From NCBI RefSeq assembly GCF_000685235.1, contig NZ_ARYH01000003.1:62001-126000 (forward strand): a stretch of DNA of 64,000 bases, in the 5' to 3' direction. Under the pieces are notes generated by a model, which made no database searches, was not told the origin of the DNA, and worked only from the letters and a program-made list of their open reading frames with translations. Source of the DNA: Hyphomonas adhaerens MHS-3 (GTDB taxonomy: Bacteria; Pseudomonadota; Alphaproteobacteria; Caulobacterales; Hyphomonadaceae). A program made the position numbers and the translations under genes. Below, one piece after another: positions 28,524 through 36,080 of this stretch. Each line of letters opens with the position of its first letter. The stretch's first letter is position 1.

Positions 28524-28583
28524 CTGACATTTTGTTGTCAGCCCAACAAAACCGCTTAGGATGACCTCAAGCCTTTGAGCTTG
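28524..28583 (+). repeat. overlapping alternative hairpins ahead of the DUF6090-like genes
   Basis: Four inverted repeats lie in 60 bp: CTGACA/TGTCAG (28524-28541) overlaps TTTTGTTG/CAACAAAA (28530-28551), and CTCAA/TTGAG (28566-28579) overlaps CAAGC/GCTTG (28568-28583). Each pair is mutually exclusive in RNA. It may be the terminator of the transpeptidase gene, an operator region, or a switchable leader. No U-tract follows any of them. Confidence 0.4.
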
Positions 28584-28631
28584 GGGGACAATCAGAATGC
28601 GGCTCTGTCTATCCACACCAGAGGATTCCTT

Positions 28632-29420
28632 GTGATCCTCCAGCGCCTCGCCACTTCGATCCGCAAGCAGGATTGGTTCACCGTCTTCATCGAGACGCTG
28701 ATTGTTGTCTTCGGCGTGTTCATCGGTCTGCAAGTCAACAACTGGAATGAGGCGCGGAAGGATCGGATTCAGGCGGAGACTTCGCGTGAGAGGCTAATTG
28801 CCGATTTGCGCGCCGATCTTGATGCCTTTGCCATTCGTCGGCAGTGGTACGAGGAAGTCCTGGAAGCCGCCCTGCGCGTTGATGACGCTCTGCAGTCCGA
28901 TCCGCCCGATACGGTCGATGAGACGTGGCGCTTTGTCCGGGACAGCTGGATTGCCGGCGGCGAATGGCCGTTCGCGCCGTCGGCGCAGATATACAAAGAG
29001 CTTCAGAACGCTGGCGATCTGGACCTCATCGCCAGCGGATCGATGCAGCGCCGGCTGCGCGACTATTATGAAGACTCCGCGCACGAGATTGAGATATCGC
29101 TGACATTCAGGTCCGCCTATGCCGATCTGGTGCACCAATTAATCGAAGGCCGCGTTGGCATGCTTATGGCCGACTGTCTGTCAGCGGCCAGTCTCGAGCC
29201 CAGCTCGCCAGGTACAACCCCCGCTACATTCTACAAGGACTGTCAGCCGCCAGAAGACTTTGCTCTCGTTATGCGCTCAGTCACAAGCCTCCGGGAGTCG
29301 GCGGCACTCCGATCCCAGCTGAATGCGCGACTGAACAGACTTTCGGGGCTCCGGTCACTGCTTGAGTATCTTGATCGACAGGCAGCATCTCTGGTGTCGG
29401 ATCTGGAGACAACACGATGA
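28632..29420 (+). CDS. DUF6090-like single-TM protein, paralog 1
   Basis: 262 residues. It starts with a short amphipathic leader (MILQRLATSIRKQDWFTV), then a membrane helix (IETLIVVFGVFIGLQ) ending in the hallmark VNNWN, then about 220 mostly helical, charged periplasmic-side residues. The LQVNNWNxAR block is shared with DUF6090-type proteins. Function unknown. GTG at 28632 is chosen because it aligns with the paralog's start and has GAGG upstream; a TTG 57 bp earlier would add an unconserved extension. The stop overlaps the start of paralog 2. Confidence 0.72.
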   Translation: MILQRLATSIRKQDWFTVFIETLIVVFGVFIGLQVNNWNEARKDRIQAETSRERLIADLRADLDAFAIRRQWYEEVLEAALRVDDALQSDPPDTVDETWRFVRDSWIAGGEWPFAPSAQIYKELQNAGDLDLIASGSMQRRLRDYYEDSAHEIEISLTFRSAYADLVHQLIEGRVGMLMADCLSAASLEPSSPGTTPATFYKDCQPPEDFALVMRSVTSLRESAALRSQLNARLNRLSGLRSLLEYLDRQAASLVSDLETTR

Positions 29421-30208
29421 TCCTCCGCCGCCTGACAGAAGCCTTTCGCAAGCAGGACTGGTTCACCGTGGTGATCGAAACCCTGATCGTGGTCTTCGGC
29501 GTTTTCATCGGGCTTCAAGTCAATAACTGGAACGCGGCGCGGGTTGAGCGAAACAGCGAGCAGGTCCTCCTCCTGCGCCTGCAGGAGGAGACCCGCTCAC
29601 TTCTGGACACACAGAAAGAAGAGCTGGCCGTACATAGCCCTCGCCTTGGGCTGGCCACAGACGCTAATTCCGTCATGTTCTCGCTCGCGCCATCACGGCC
29701 ACTCACCAATGAAGAGTGCTGGGCTCTGCTCGTCTCACACTGGATACCCTCGCCCACCGAAGCATTGTCGAGCCTTGATGAGCTCATTTCATCCGGCCGG
29801 TTTGACCTGATTTCCAACCCTTCCGTGAAGTCGGCCCTGCGCGACTATGCTGTTGTGCAGGAACGTTCCCGTGCTGCGCGGGCAGAAGCGGTCAACGAAC
29901 TTTTCCGGCTTCACACCCGGTATCCGGACGCCATCTGGCTCGAAGTGGGGCGTGCTGAAGATGCAGGCTACGTTTCTCCAAGTGCGGGCCGTGACGACAA
30001 GGGCCTGGTGTGGCGATATAATTGTGACATCGACCAGATACGCGGGAATAAGGGCCTCCTCAGCGAGTACAGCGACAACATTGCACGCTTGGAGTCATTC
30101 CTCGACCGGTACGAAGACCGCATTGCGGTCCTGACCGTGCTGGATGCTGAACTGGCGAAGGAACTGGGCACGCCAGACTCACAGCGCAAGAGCGAGGCCG
30201 CCCCATGA
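29417..30208 (+). CDS. DUF6090-like single-TM protein, paralog 2
   Basis: 263 residues; start MILRRLTEAFRKQDWFTVVI. The first 45 residues are nearly identical to paralog 1 in protein and close in DNA (for example GTTCACCGT, TCGGCGT and CAAGTCAA shared), while the remaining 215 diverge strongly. Membrane helix at about 18-35 ending LQVNNWNAAR. No enzyme motif is visible. ATGA overlaps at both ends tie it to paralog 1 and to the 28-codon remnant. Tandem duplication with fast-evolving C termini suggests a surface or interaction role (inference). Confidence 0.72.
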   Translation: MILRRLTEAFRKQDWFTVVIETLIVVFGVFIGLQVNNWNAARVERNSEQVLLLRLQEETRSLLDTQKEELAVHSPRLGLATDANSVMFSLAPSRPLTNEECWALLVSHWIPSPTEALSSLDELISSGRFDLISNPSVKSALRDYAVVQERSRAARAEAVNELFRLHTRYPDAIWLEVGRAEDAGYVSPSAGRDDKGLVWRYNCDIDQIRGNKGLLSEYSDNIARLESFLDRYEDRIAVLTVLDAELAKELGTPDSQRKSEAAP

Positions 30209-30291
30209 TCCTGCGCCGCATCACCCTCGCGTTCCCGTCATACCTTGAAAGCCGGGCAACTGACCTGGTCACGGAATTGGAGACCCAATGA
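30205..30291 (+). pseudogene. internally deleted third DUF6090-like copy (28 codons)
   Basis: Reads MILRRITLAF, then PSYLESRATDLVTELETQ and stop. The first 10 residues match the start of paralog 2 (MILRRLTEAF), and the last part matches the extreme C terminus of paralog 1 (LEYLDRQAASLVSDLETTR). The roughly 235 codons between are missing, so one in-frame internal deletion explains it. It is too short to fold as the family protein, but it keeps ATGA overlaps with both neighbours (30205-30208 and 30288-30291), preserving the translational chain to the next gene. Confidence 0.65.
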
Positions 30292-30776
30292 CTCTTGAGC
30301 AGATTGCCTATGTTGCCCAGATCGCCGGTGTCATTGTCGTTGCGGCGACCCTGATCTTCCTTACGATACAGGTCCGGCAGGGTACCGTATTGCTGCGCTC
30401 GGAGTCGCGGCAGACACAGCTCGCGAACGACCAGACCGGCGTTTACAAATTTGTCGAGTTCCCGGAACTCGGCCGCATACTCTCGCAAGCCGAAACACCC
30501 AGTTTCGAAGAGAAGACAAAAGTGATCTTCTGGATGATCGGCCAGATGCGCGCCCGCGAATATGAATGGCTGCAATACAAGTCCGGCGCCATGGACAAGG
30601 AGTCCTGGGAAACCTATCGCGGTGTGATCTATTTCGTGCTCGGCACTGAACGGGCCCGCGCGCTGTGGGGCCTGACCGCCGGATATTTCAATGCCGGATT
30701 CGCTGCAATGGTCGAAGAGATGGTCCGCGAGGTGCCACCGATCGAATACTGGAACGAGCTGCAGGCGATAAAATAG
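30288..30776 (+). CDS. hypothetical single-TM protein (162 aa)
   Basis: Begins MTLEQIAYVAQIAGVIVVAA; one membrane helix at about 8-28 followed by LTIQVRQGTVLLRSESRQTQ, then a helical soluble domain with WMIGQMRAREYEWLQYKSG and SWETYRGVIYFVLG. This layout recurs as uncharacterised proteins in marine and aquatic proteobacteria. No enzymatic motif. The start overlaps the deleted DUF6090-like copy, so translation probably depends on the upstream genes. The hairpin array follows its stop. Confidence 0.7.
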   Translation: MTLEQIAYVAQIAGVIVVAATLIFLTIQVRQGTVLLRSESRQTQLANDQTGVYKFVEFPELGRILSQAETPSFEEKTKVIFWMIGQMRAREYEWLQYKSGAMDKESWETYRGVIYFVLGTERARALWGLTAGYFNAGFAAMVEEMVREVPPIEYWNELQAIK

Positions 30777-30884
30777 GCCAGCGGCCCGTTGCGCGCCTCA
30801 GATTAAACTTCCGACACAATTCAGATTTCTGCGACGGGAAATGCCCGGCGACACGTTTGACCTGTATGCGGTTCGCCGCAACCG

Positions 30885-30999
30885 GTCCCGTTCGCTGTGG
30901 TTTCCTCCCCTGAAAATGACACGGCGAACCGCCCGCCATGCCGTCTGTCTTGACCCCCTGAGCCCCAACAGACGGCATGGCGGGCACCTCCATTTCTCT
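30885..30999 (+). ncRNA. hairpin-array unit 1 (cuckoo-type sRNA candidate)
   Basis: Begins with GTCCCGTTC (30885). Hairpin A: TTCGCTGTG (30891-30899) pairs with CACGGCGAA (30920-30928) with an inner TTTC/GAAA stem presenting the loop CTCCCCT (30905-30911). Hairpin B: a perfect 18-bp inverted repeat, GCCCGCCATGCCGTCTGT (30931-30948) with its complement at 30968-30985; loop with GACCCCC and GCCCC. A pyrimidine-rich tail follows. C-rich loops resemble anti-Shine-Dalgarno motifs. No protein frame. Confidence 0.55.
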
Positions 31000-31103
31000 G
31001 GCCCTTTTCCGGCCCGGATTCCTTACCGGAATTTCACCTCTCACGAACGCGTGAGCCGCATGGAAACTGCCCCCCTTTTACCCATATGAACAGGACGAGA
31101 GAG

Positions 31104-31206
31104 GTCCCGTTCGAAACGTTTCTTCCCCCTGGAAACCGAACGGCGAACCGCCCGCCATGTCGCCCCGTCCTCACCCCCCTAGATGGACGACATGGCGGGT
31201 TTTCTC
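31104..31206 (+). ncRNA. hairpin-array unit 2 (cuckoo-type sRNA candidate)
   Basis: Begins with GTCCCGTTC (31104). Hairpin A: CCGTTCG (31107-31113)/CGAACGG (31137-31143) plus inner GTTTC/GAAAC, loop TTCCCCCTG (31123-31131). Hairpin B: CCCGCCATGTCG (31151-31162)/CGACATGGCGGG (31188-31199), loop with CACCCCCCT, followed at once by TTTTCTCT, so hairpin B looks like a Rho-independent terminator. CCATAT at 31082-31087 lies about 20 bp before the unit. Confidence 0.55.
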
Positions 31207-31258
31207 TCGGTCCTGATCATTTTGGATAAACGACCTCGGCCCGACGTCTTACAGGCGA

Positions 31259-31350
31259 GTCCCGTTCACTCCGGCACCCCTGAAACAGCCGGAATTGAAC
31301 AGCCCGCCGAGCCAATCGGACCCCGGTCTGGCCCGGCGGGCACCTTTATT
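31259..31350 (+). ncRNA. hairpin-array unit 3 (degenerate)
   Basis: Begins with GTCCCGTTC (31259). Hairpin A: GTTCA (31264-31268)/TGAAC (31296-31300) and CCGGC/GCCGG (31271-31275, 31288-31292), loop ACCCCTGAAACA. Hairpin B: GCCCGCCG (31302-31309)/CGGCGGGC (31334-31341), inner loop with GGACCCCGG; short tail ACCTTTATT. More diverged than units 1, 2 and 4, lacking the CATG part of the B stem. Confidence 0.45.
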
Positions 31351-31418
31351 CATCATCCGCTGAAATTTTCTGGATAAAGCGCCGGACTGGCACGTCTTGT
31401 CTTTGAAGCCCGCACGCG

Positions 31419-31535
31419 GGCCTCTTCGCTGTGGATACCATTTCCCCATTCTCCCACCGCACTTTGGGGACAGCGAAACCGCCCGCCATGCCAGGTCCAG
31501 CCCCCCGGACCAACGGCATGGCGGGCCCCTTTTCC
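31419..31535 (+). ncRNA. hairpin-array unit 4 (cuckoo-type sRNA candidate)
   Basis: Hairpin A: TTCGCTGT (31425-31432)/ACAGCGAA (31470-31477), sharing TTCGCTGTGG with unit 1, inner CCCCA/TGGGG, loop with TTCTCCCACC. Hairpin B: GCCCGCCATGCC (31481-31492)/GGCATGGCGGGC (31515-31526) with inner GGTCC/GGACC and loop AGCCCCCC; then CCCTTTTCC. Ends 55 bp before the ABC-F start. Confidence 0.5.
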
Positions 31536-31590
31536 GGGTCTACCGCAGCCTGCCCTTGCATTCACCACAGGCCCGGTTACACCCCCGCCC

Positions 31591-33465
31591 ATGCTCACCA
31601 TTACCAACCTCGATTTTCAGGTCGAAGCCCGGCCCCTGTTCGAATCTGCCTCCGCGCAGATCTCGGCCGGCTGGAAAGTCGGCCTTGTCGGCCGCAACGG
31701 CACCGGCAAGTCCACCCTGCTGCGCCTGATCCGCGAGGATGTGGAACATCCGACAAATGATGCCGCGATCCGGCTGAACACCGGCGCCCGGCTCGGCTGG
31801 GTCGCGCAGGAAGTCGCGCCGACCGACGAGACGGTGCTCGACGTTGTCCTCGCAGCGGATACCGAGCGCCACGCCCTCATGCAGGAGGCCGAGACCGCGA
31901 CCGATCCGAACCGGATCGGCGAGATCCATGAACGCCTGGTCGACATCGACGCCTGGTCGGCAGAAGCGCGTGCGGCCGAAGTGCTGCACGGGCTCGGCTT
32001 TTCAGATGACGACCTTGCCCGCGCGACGAAGGAATTCTCCGGCGGCTGGCGCATGCGTGCGGCGATTGCCGGCGTCCTCTTCTCGCAACCGGACTTCCTG
32101 CTGCTGGACGAGCCGACCAACTATCTGGACCTTGAAGGCGCCGCCTGGCTGGAAACCTATATCAGAAAGTATCCGTACACGGTCCTGATCGTCAGCCACG
32201 ACCGCGAAATGCTGAACCGCTGTGTGACGCACACAATGGCACTGGAGCACAAGAAGCTCTCCATCACGCCGGGCGGCTATGACGACTGGCTGAAACTGCG
32301 CGCCGCCAAGCTGGCCCAGCTGGAATCCCAGCAGGCGAAACAGGCCAAGGAACGCGCCCACCTGCAGAGCTTTGTCGACCGCTTCCGCGCCAAGGCCTCC
32401 AAGGCCCGGCAGGCGCAATCGCGCATCAAGATGCTGGAGAAGATGCAGGACATCTCCATCCCGGTTGCCGACCGCACGACGCCGTTCCACTTCCCGCCGC
32501 CCGCCGACAAGCTGGCCCCGCCCATGCTGGAACTGAAGGACGCCGATCTCGGCTATGGCGAAGACGCGCGTATCCTGTCGAAGGTGAACCTCCGCCTCGA
32601 TCCGGACGACCGCATCGCCATTGTCGGCGCCAACGGACAGGGCAAGACGACGCTGGTCAAATCGATCGCCGAACGCCTGCCGCTGATGGCGGGCAAGCGC
32701 GTCACGCCGAAAGCCGTGCGCATCGGCTATTTCTCGCAGGACCAGCTGGACGAGCTGTCCGAGGGCGACAGCGTGCTGGACCATGTGCGCCGCCTGTTGC
32801 CGCCTGACACACCGCCGGCGAAAGTCCGCGCCGCCGCGGCCGCCATGGGCTTTTCCGCCGAGAAGGTGGAAACCAAGGTCGAGAAACTATCGGGCGGCGA
32901 GAAAGTGCGGTTGCTGCTGGGCCTCATGTCCCACAGCGCGCCGCACATCCTGATCCTCGACGAACCGACGTCCCACCTCGACATCGACAGCCGCGAGGCG
33001 CTGATCTACGCGCTGAACGATTTCCCTGGCGCCGTCCTGCTGATCACCCACGATGTCTATCTCGCCGAAGCGACAGCCGACCGGCTGTGGCTGGTCAAGG
33101 ATGGCCGCGCCACGATGTATGACGGGGACCTCGAAGACTACCGCGCCCTCGTCATGAAGGCCGACCGGGCCGAAGGAAAAGCCGCGAAAGCGAAAGAGGC
33201 AAAACCAAAACAGGCCGCGGCAAAGCCTGCCGCCTCGCCGGAAGACAAGAAACGCCTCTCCGCCCTCAAGAAGCGGGCCCGCGAAGCCGAGGAACGGATG
33301 GAAAAGGCCAACGCCGCCATCGCACGGATCGACGCAAAGCTGGCCGAAGGCACCCCGCCGCCGGACCAGCTTGAAAAGCTCCTGAAGGACCGCGCGGCTT
33401 ACGCCGAAACGGCCGAAGAGGCTGAACACGCCTGGCTCGAAGCGGCAGAAGAGATGGATGCGTAG
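31591..33465 (+). CDS. ABC-F family ATP-binding protein
   Basis: 624 residues with two ABC domains and no membrane helices. Domain 1: GRNGTGKST (Walker A, about 36), FSGGWRMR, LLLDEPTNYLD. The linker with KQAKERAHLQSFVDRFRAKA is the ABC-F interdomain helix. Domain 2: GANGQGKTT, LSGGEKVRLLLG, LILDEPTSHLD. A Lys/Ala/Glu-rich coiled-coil C terminus (about 525-624) resembles Uup/YheS-type members that act on ribosomes or resolve stalled translation. The upstream sequence before ATG shows no Shine-Dalgarno motif. The hairpin array ends directly upstream and may affect its expression. Confidence 0.92.
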   Translation: MLTITNLDFQVEARPLFESASAQISAGWKVGLVGRNGTGKSTLLRLIREDVEHPTNDAAIRLNTGARLGWVAQEVAPTDETVLDVVLAADTERHALMQEAETATDPNRIGEIHERLVDIDAWSAEARAAEVLHGLGFSDDDLARATKEFSGGWRMRAAIAGVLFSQPDFLLLDEPTNYLDLEGAAWLETYIRKYPYTVLIVSHDREMLNRCVTHTMALEHKKLSITPGGYDDWLKLRAAKLAQLESQQAKQAKERAHLQSFVDRFRAKASKARQAQSRIKMLEKMQDISIPVADRTTPFHFPPPADKLAPPMLELKDADLGYGEDARILSKVNLRLDPDDRIAIVGANGQGKTTLVKSIAERLPLMAGKRVTPKAVRIGYFSQDQLDELSEGDSVLDHVRRLLPPDTPPAKVRAAAAAMGFSAEKVETKVEKLSGGEKVRLLLGLMSHSAPHILILDEPTSHLDIDSREALIYALNDFPGAVLLITHDVYLAEATADRLWLVKDGRATMYDGDLEDYRALVMKADRAEGKAAKAKEAKPKQAAAKPAASPEDKKRLSALKKRAREAEERMEKANAAIARIDAKLAEGTPPPDQLEKLLKDRAAYAETAEEAEHAWLEAAEEMDA

Positions 33466-34242: not shown

Positions 34243-34269
34243 TGTCACAAAACCGCGCGCTGTCTCGTC
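34243..34269 (+). promoter_or_regulatory. ECF41-type promoter
   Basis: TGTCACA (34243-34249), exactly 16 bp, then CGTC (34266-34269). This is the published ECF41 consensus (TGTCACA-N16-CGTC) in full. It lies 25 bp before the start of the 128-aa gene, first of the operon that encodes the ECF41 sigma factor itself, so the factor very probably activates its own operon. Confidence 0.85.
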
Positions 34270-34681: not shown

Positions 34682-35214
34682 TCCGCAAATTCCTCCGCAG
34701 CAAAGCCCGCAAGATGGGCCAGCACTACAATTACGATGTCAGCTATATGCACGGCCTGATCGACATCAGCCCGGCGGCGGCCATCGGGCTCGGCCGCCTG
34801 CCCCAATTCTACAAATATCGCGGCCCGGCCGCCGGACAGGCCGCCTGGACCGGCGCCCTCCTCGCCTCCACACTGGAAGGCGATTGCGGCCCGTGCGCCC
34901 AGCTGGTCGTCGACATGGCCCTTGAGGGCGGCGCCGATCCGGCCAGCCTTCAGGCCTGCGCCGAAGGCCGTCCTCAGGAGGCTGGCGTGACCGGACTCGG
35001 CTTCCGCTTTGCCATGATGGCGATCACGGGTGACCCGCGCGCTGACGACCTCCGCCGCGAGATTGAGAGCGCGTTCGGAAAGAAGGCTGCCGTCTCGTGC
35101 GCTTTCGCCGCCGCGTCCGGCCGCATCTATCCCGTTCTCAAACGTGGCCTCGGCCACGGGCAGGCCTGCCAGAGGCTGGACTTTGGCGGCAAGGTCGTGA
35201 AGCTCGCCGCATGA
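34678..35214 (+). CDS. carboxymuconolactone decarboxylase/AhpD-like protein
   Basis: 178 residues, helical. The core LASTLEGDCGPCAQLVVDMAL has the CxxC of AhpD/CMD-type alkylhydroperoxidases, but the His normally four residues after the second Cys is Val here. CMD genes next to ECF41 sigma factors are the standard pairing for this group. The ATG at 34678 overlaps the upstream stop; its own stop overlaps the sigma factor start. Probably a redox-active partner whose activity triggers or is controlled by the ECF41 system (known association, exact role inferred). Confidence 0.82.
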   Translation: MIRKFLRSKARKMGQHYNYDVSYMHGLIDISPAAAIGLGRLPQFYKYRGPAAGQAAWTGALLASTLEGDCGPCAQLVVDMALEGGADPASLQACAEGRPQEAGVTGLGFRFAMMAITGDPRADDLRREIESAFGKKAAVSCAFAAASGRIYPVLKRGLGHGQACQRLDFGGKVVKLAA

Positions 35215-36080
35215 CTGCCGACACTGCCCTGTTCGAAGCCGAGCGCCCGGCCCTGACAGCCCTGTGCTATCGCATGCTGGGCGAGCGGGCGGGCGCGGAA
35301 GACGCGGTGCAGGACACCTGGCTGCGCTGGGAGCGGGCCGACCACGAGGCCATCGAGAACCCCAGCGCCTGGCTGCGCCGCACCGCCACGCGCATTGCGA
35401 TCGATGCCCTGCGCTCGGCCCGGGCGCGTCGCGAGACCTATCCCGGCCCGTGGCTGCCGGAGCCGTTGGTGGAGAGCGAAAGCCTCGGTATCGAAGCGCG
35501 CTTCGAACTCGCGCAGGAATGCGAGTTGGCCCTGCTCTGGGCGATGGAGCGCCTGTCGCCGACAGAACGCGCCGCCTTCATTCTGCGCGAGGCCTTCGAT
35601 GCCGGTTATGACGAGATCTCCGCCGTCACAGGAAAGTCCCAGGCTGCCTGCCGCCAGATGGTCAGCCGGGCGCACCGGCGCCTGCAGGAAAACGGCCCGC
35701 GCTTCGATGCCCCGCCCGCCGAAGTGGCGGACCTGCTGCAGCGCTTCGTTGCGGCGGCCAATGCGCTGGACCATGACGCGGCGCTCTCCCTCTTTGCGCC
35801 AGCCGCGGCGGCCTATACCGACGGCGGCAAGAAGGCCCGTGCAGCGCTCCGTCCACTGATCGGTCCGGAAGACATCACCCAGGTGCTGATGGCGGTCATG
35901 GCCAAGGCCGCGCAAGCAACGACCCAATGGTCGGTGGAGCCGAGCCTCGCCAATGGTGCGCCCGCGATCGTGCGGCGGCTGGACGGCCGGGTGGACCTTG
36001 TCCTGACGCTGGCGCCGTCCTCTGATGGCCGCATCGGCTGGCTCTACGCCATGCGCAATCCGGACAAGCTGCCTGGCTAA
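35211..36080 (+). CDS. ECF41-family RNA polymerase sigma factor
   Basis: 289 residues. Sigma2 region (about 12-75: ALCYRMLGERAGAEDAVQDTW), linker with YPGPWLPEPLV, a hallmark of ECF41, then sigma4 (about 110-165: ERAAFILREAFDAGYDEIS, SQAACRQMVSRAHRRL). The C-terminal 115 residues form the fused SnoaL-like domain (TDGGKKA matches the DGGGK motif region) that acts as an internal anti-sigma or activity switch instead of a separate anti-sigma factor. Start ATG at 35211 (ATGA with CMD). The matched promoter is at 34243. Confidence 0.92.
   Translation: MTADTALFEAERPALTALCYRMLGERAGAEDAVQDTWLRWERADHEAIENPSAWLRRTATRIAIDALRSARARRETYPGPWLPEPLVESESLGIEARFELAQECELALLWAMERLSPTERAAFILREAFDAGYDEISAVTGKSQAACRQMVSRAHRRLQENGPRFDAPPAEVADLLQRFVAAANALDHDAALSLFAPAAAAYTDGGKKARAALRPLIGPEDITQVLMAVMAKAAQATTQWSVEPSLANGAPAIVRRLDGRVDLVLTLAPSSDGRIGWLYAMRNPDKLPG

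Follow-up and report, generated by a model that had tools for sequence, protein, structure and literature searches.

Small RNAs (sRNAs) with C-rich hairpin loops that resemble anti-Shine-Dalgarno sequences are known from several Alphaproteobacteria. The cuckoo RNAs belong to this kind, namely CcsR1-4 of Rhodobacter sphaeroides, which form a tandem cluster of four, and alpha-r14/NfeR1 (SmelA075) of rhizobia. In alpha-r14 the loop motif is ultraconserved and the stems are highly variable (PMC3927594, PMC10746234). Another group, alpha-R8 (MmgR; SisA-D), carries the core UUUCCUCCCU, a sequence that in C. crescentus pairs with an mRNA and represses it (PMC12559287), and GsrN of Caulobacteraceae is an sRNA whose C-rich 5' hairpin loop pairs with G-rich mRNA sites (PMC5869019).

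The present work deals with a locus of Hyphomonas, a budding relative of Caulobacter; no sRNA study of this genus was found in the literature searched. The DNA analysed, called the window below, is a stretch of 64,000 nucleotides from the 3.67-Mb genome of H. adhaerens MHS-3 (G000), in which a first-pass annotation had pointed out four two-hairpin units in tandem and had proposed that they form a cuckoo-type small RNA family. We argue that the array probably represents four sibling sRNA genes on the + strand, specific to Hyphomonas and with promoters of their own, whose C-rich loops would block the Shine-Dalgarno sequences of mRNAs encoded in trans.

Structure of the array

The units occupy positions 30885-31535 of the window and are placed on the + strand, between a small ORF (30288-30776) and the gene of an ABC-F ATPase. 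The hairpins and the elements that surround them are as follows.

30831-30857, + strand: P1, GCGACGG-N16-CGTT before unit 1, promoter-like, spacing identical in 9/9 species that have this unit
30890-30929, + strand: hairpin A of unit 1, loop GUUUCCUCCCCUGAAAAUGA, containing UUUCCUCCC
30931-30985, + strand: hairpin B of unit 1, perfect 18-bp stem GCCCGCCATGCCGTCTGT, loop with CCCCC and CCCC
31040-31055, + strand: palindrome CTCACGAACGCGTGAG, likely transcription-factor site upstream of unit 2, TCACRAANGCGTGA kept in 14/14 species
31061-31087, + strand: P2, putative core promoter of unit 2, TGGAAAC...CCCATAT, position-fixed in 14 species
31097-31104, + strand: leader of unit 2, GAGAGAGG, predicted to pair with a CUCUC tail 3' of hairpin B
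31103-31149, + strand: hairpin A of unit 2, loop in the region of UUCUUCCCCCUGGAA
31150-31200, + strand: hairpin B of unit 2, loop CACCCCCC, then TTTTCTCTC
31223-31248, + strand: P3, promoter-like element of unit 3, TGGATAA-N15-CGTC, exact in 6/6 four-unit species
31264-31300, + strand: hairpin A of unit 3, loop ACCCCUGAAAC
31302-31341, + strand: hairpin B of unit 3, diverged, shorter form
31371-31396, + strand: P4, TGGATAA-N15-CGTC before unit 4, promoter-like, exact in 7 species, namely G031 and the six with four units
31425-31477, + strand: hairpin A of unit 4, big loop with UUCCCC and CUCCCACC
31481-31526, + strand: hairpin B of unit 4, loop CCCCCC, then CCCTTTTCC
31555-31583, + strand: candidate promoter of the ABC-F gene itself (CTTGCATTC...GGTTACAC), similar elements in relatives without the array
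31591-33465, + strand: ABC-F family ATPase gene, syntenic anchor, outside the array

Folding gave z-scores of -6.8, -6.3, -5.0 and -5.9 for units 1 to 4, and 0, 0, 1 and 0 of 200 shuffles, respectively, folded as well as the real unit, which bears out the original division into four units with a hairpin A and a hairpin B each. A covariance model built from 15 units found exactly four units in the H. adhaerens genome, all on the + strand (105.5, 81.6, 42.2 and 57.4 bits for units 1 to 4), unit 3 being the most diverged, with 42 bits against 57-105 for the others. Weaker matches in this genome came solely from noise below the threshold and from these hairpins read on the opposite strand. In unit 2 the predicted pairing joins GAGAG of the leader to the CUCUC tail; of the two, the leader is the better conserved, and not every species keeps the pairing (G019 does not). 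The TTTTCT annotated directly 3' of hairpin B of unit 2 is indeed present, but that hairpin found no support in the terminator scan, in which hairpin B of units 1, 2 and 4 was not scored as an intrinsic terminator, the scan's loop limit of 8 nt excluding large loops. Its sole call on the + strand was a partial stem at unit 3 (31326-31341), and a canonical U-tract is missing after hairpin B in most units.

The description of the loops as C-rich holds for the whole family: a run of at least four C is found in 30 of 35 A loops and 33 of 35 B loops, compared with 6-7% of the 19-22-nt stretches in the window. Most loop C-runs are predicted to be unpaired, with mean probabilities of 0.85-1.0; units 2 and 3 each have one run that is predicted to be half paired (~0.5 unpaired), and the CCCC in hairpin A of unit 4 is predicted to be mostly paired (unpaired p=0.17). 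Within G000 the exact motif CCUCC occurs in an A loop in unit 1 only; among the 35 family units, 12 have it in the A loop and 5 in the B loop. Between close species the loops vary in length by one or two bases, which speaks against a coding region.

Covariation and conservation of the stems

Covariation was assessed on 35 aligned units. Base changes on both sides were present in 15 of the 27 pairs, and the cells with such changes numbered 62, compared with 27.8 +/- 4.1 in shuffles and 8-18 with the partners slid by 1-3 columns, figures that come from an alignment fitted to the model and hence leaning towards structure. Compensatory stems could also be seen by eye, as in GTTCGCTGTGG/CCACAGCGAAC (G024), GTTCGCTGCGTC/GACGCAGCGAAC (G025), GCCCGTCATGCC/GGCATGACGGGC (G019) and GCCCGCCATGTCATC/GATGACATGGCGGGT (G036). 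The stems had been reported to covary between units, and they do, much more strongly between species; a lack of compensatory changes in relatives, considered at that stage as a point against selected structure, is excluded by the same 15 pairs. Judged by comparison of these sequences, the structure of the units is under selection. A strand test gave G-U counts of 33 vs A-C counts of 42, which speaks for neither strand.

Across the 35 units the bases of the basal stem are invariant or nearly so and the loops are variable in length and sequence; five pairs of hairpin B never vary. The basal stem CCCGCCAUG/CAUGGCGGG (30931-30985, 31150-31200 and 31481-31526) is near-invariant across paralogues and species, beyond what base pairing needs, and is a possible protein or sequence-specific site.

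Distribution

A DNA similarity search of relatives gave close copies only, and synteny together with the covariance model, run on genomes of the genus, the order and the class, was needed for the rest. Conservation in related genomes, which the first-pass annotation had put forward as a check, was found: the model matches in 16 of the 42 Hyphomonas genomes searched, truly in 15 of them and spuriously in one (G005), the match at G005:C19 (E=0.0017) being rejected as a hairpin-B look-alike only. There is one locus per genome, bearing 1, 2 or 4 units. At this syntenic place, upstream of the ABC-F gene, G000, G018, G036, G006, G004 and G032 have four units. Two units occur in G064 and G035, where they are of types 1 and 2, and in G031, where they are of types 2 and 4. 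G027, in which a contig break cuts the locus, has at least two, and G024, G019, G025, G003 and G063 have a single one. In an ABC-F tree that did not include G003 and G063, all the unit-bearing species placed fall into one clade, which also has members without units (G026, G016, G008 and G012). All single-unit species share with unit 2 its palindrome and its putative core promoter, and unit 2 is therefore probably the one nearest to the ancestral unit.

Hyphomonas was the sole genus in which the covariance model gave matches, among the 54 genera in 299 genomes of the order and the 276 genera in 385 genomes of the class, in searches with stricter filters that strongly diverged relatives could escape. 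A scan of Rfam at gathering cut-offs gave no match for the array, and at E<=10 it gave chance matches only, for instance F6, which hit hairpin B at its long stem on either strand. By these searches the family is conserved in one branch of Hyphomonas and absent from Rfam.

Upstream elements

In single-unit species 46 of 101 columns are invariant in the upstream 100 nt, compared with 3 of 172 in the downstream 100 nt, and a conserved flank found solely upstream indicates that the direction of the units is +. Over 163 kb of homologous upstream DNA, P1 has just 9 copies, each of them at unit 1. The region of P2 has a common makeup at unit 2 and at the single units (14 species), consisting of the palindrome, then TTGG or ATGG, boxes resembling CC(C/T)ATAT and the leader GAGAGAG; G024 and G019 have weaker boxes, and the counterpart in the single-unit species G003 is CTTGGACAC...CCTATAT. 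The palindrome, as TCACGAANGCGTGA, has one exact copy in the genome, copies with one mismatch are near control level (8 vs 4), and one species has the variant TCACAAACGCGTGA. A conserved TTACC..TTTCAC stretch lies 5' of it. P3 and P4 are exact in 13/13 cases although the spacer diverges. Their pattern, TGGATAA-N15-CGTC, has two copies in the whole genome, P3 and P4 themselves (reversed-pattern control 0), so that a genome search for a regulon gave no copies beyond those in the array.

The CGTC and CGTT boxes recall the -10 elements of ECF sigma factors. The EcfG/sigma-T consensus is GGAAC-N16/17-CGTT; it was not seen at the array when the upstream alignments were inspected by eye, P1 having the CGTT and a GGAA-like box only at 12-nt spacing. 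From conservation and spacing, we infer that P1-P4 act as promoters. Units 1, 2 and 3+4 carry three distinct conserved promoter-like elements, and the siblings are therefore probably made under different conditions.

Comparison with known sRNAs

The array shares with the cuckoo RNAs its C-rich, anti-Shine-Dalgarno-like hairpin loops, and "cuckoo-type" holds as a working analogy in that there are two hairpins, C-rich loops and four units in tandem. The likeness to CcsR is one of architecture only, a tandem cluster of four with C-rich hairpin loops. In G003 the promoter of unit-2 type, CTTGGAC-N16-CTATAT, is similar to that of NfeR1, CTTAGAC-N17-CTATAT (PMC10746234). Membership of the cuckoo family is unsupported. 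The motif CCUCCUCCC is found in 0 of 35 family units; the G000 genome has no DUF1127 (PF06568) match at E<=0.1, the control giving matches in E. coli and Caulobacter; and conservation is reversed, the array family having conserved stems and variable loops, in contrast to alpha-r14, which also has three hairpins rather than two. The suhB model RF00519, suggested as a test of the assignment, misses the array (no match at E<=10) and has its hit at another locus of the genome. What survives of the proposed cuckoo-type family is thus the tandem structured RNAs with C-rich loops, for which folding, covariation, synteny and the promoter-like elements speak, and not the family name.

The RF00519 copy, at G000:C1:1210528-1210601 (L220; 54.9 bits), carries GUUUCCUCCCU, with the alpha-R8 core, and a U-tract terminator, and RF00519 is above cut-off in 55 of the 61 relatives searched, which suggests that RF00519 and alpha-R8/MmgR describe the same RNA. 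In the array, the loop UUUCCUCCC of unit 1 followed by C has 9 of the 10 letters of the core; units 2-4 lack this, and the full single-stranded core is absent from the units. In C. crescentus, alpha-R8 likewise has four sibling RNAs, whose promoters are unrelated (PMC12559287), but SisA-D are dispersed in Caulobacter whereas the Hyphomonas units are in tandem. An alpha-R8 RNA also differs in having a single core, which is unpaired, and a terminator of the Rho-independent type. GsrN is likewise an sRNA with a C-rich loop, but it is a single gene with a sigma-T promoter and with BLASTn homologues within Caulobacteraceae only (PMC5869019). OmrA/OmrB and Qrr are also paralogous sRNAs, OmrA/B in tandem; they are co-regulated (PMC12559287, discussion), whereas the upstream elements of the array differ.

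Interpretation of the array

The four RNAs could come from one precursor that RNase E cuts, as with CcsR1-4, and that starts at a single promoter or belongs to the upstream ORF as its 3' UTR. The tandem arrangement and the weak terminators in the scan would agree with this, as would the precedent of CcsR, which is cut from the ccaF1 3' UTR (PMC10253847, PMC8625941). CcsR, however, has one RpoHI/RpoHII promoter before its processed precursor (PMC10253847), and the three kinds of upstream element at the array speak against such an arrangement. We regard it as unlikely, since every unit has its own conserved element at fixed spacing, the unit-2 promoter alone is kept in single-unit species and the genome is without a DUF1127 gene. 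It is extremely improbable that the array is a cis-acting leader or attenuator of the ABC-F gene. Some antibiotic-resistance ABC-F genes do have attenuating leaders, and 64 nt separate the end of unit 4 from the ABC-F start; however, a promoter-like element stands right before that start, also in species without the array, the unit lies 1.2 kb upstream of the gene in G019 and 1.9 kb in G003 (measured from the ABC-F start given by the protein search), and many relatives keep the gene without any unit. With a promoter-like element of its own for the gene and such distant units, the array would not be its leader.

Activity of the minus strand is very unlikely. Its G-rich loops (GGGGAGGAAAC) would mimic Shine-Dalgarno sequences and sponge the alpha-R8-like sRNA of this genome, as CrfA does with SisA-D (PMC12559287), and for the minus-strand loop of unit 1 and the RF00519/alpha-R8-like copy a pairing energy of -23.4 kcal/mol is predicted; yet the full complement is found in unit 1 only, not in units 2-4, and the conserved flank and promoter-like elements are on the + side of the units. 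The invariance of the CCCGCCAUG/CAUGGCGGG stem and of the five hairpin B pairs would fit structured RNAs that work by protein binding at this stem, the loops being secondary. This is highly improbable, as C-runs are kept in nearly all loops despite changes in loop length and sequence. Least probable of all are DNA-level repeats (REP-like elements or transposon remnants) without RNA function. Palindromes with invariant stem bases would suit them, but compensatory changes at the species level and conserved promoter-like elements would not, and there is one locus in every genome with no further copy. Genome-wide dispersal as REP-type elements, raised by the first-pass annotation against its own proposal, is excluded, and REP-like repeats or chance are ruled out, by the presence of only four genomic copies, all at one locus.

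With the array read as four sibling sRNA genes, we infer transcription, transcript ends, strand, promoter function, base pairing with mRNAs and a physiological role for the units as follows. Each unit would give a separate small RNA of about 100-135 nt from the + strand and from its own promoter, with two hairpins and with C-runs (UUUCCUCCC in unit 1) mostly in single-stranded loops. The loops would most likely pair with G-rich Shine-Dalgarno regions of trans-encoded mRNAs, and this pairing would block ribosome binding or translation, as described for alpha-r14 and the alpha-R8 sRNA SisA. The candidate target pattern GGGGAGGA-N3-11-ATG has 10 sites in the genome and 5 in the reversed-pattern control, too weak a difference for targets to be named from one Shine-Dalgarno pattern, and this was dropped. 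One of the ten sites precedes a TonB-dependent-receptor-like gene, where the candidate site GGGGAGGAAAAATTAGATG has a predicted pairing of ~-21 kcal/mol with the loop of unit 1.

More tentatively, and as a possibility that we hold with some doubt, one ancestral sRNA gene may have given rise to four tandem siblings with three promoter types, through which different stress regulators might feed one output of C-rich, anti-Shine-Dalgarno loops; the locus would then be a compact signal-integration array and a new family unrelated by descent to the cuckoo RNAs. Related species have 1, 2 or 4 units at one and the same place; along this series one can trace how sibling sRNAs and their separate promoters arose, which bears on why bacteria keep several near-equal sRNAs. 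The array would add another case of C-rich, anti-Shine-Dalgarno-like loops in Alphaproteobacteria, with different stems and partners.

Neighbouring features

Upstream of the array lie two adjacent, similar genes (28575-29420 and 29417-30208) with weak DUF6090 matches and an N-terminal LIVVFGVFIGLQVNNWN; genes similar to this pair are also found near the unit in G063. Further along the window, a perfect TGTCACA-N16-CGTC, which we take to be the ECF41-type promoter consensus, is present at 34243-34269. Downstream of it come a probable carboxymuconolactone-decarboxylase-like ORF and the gene (35097-36077) of an ECF sigma factor with a long C-terminal extension, and the whole looks like a standard ECF41 module.
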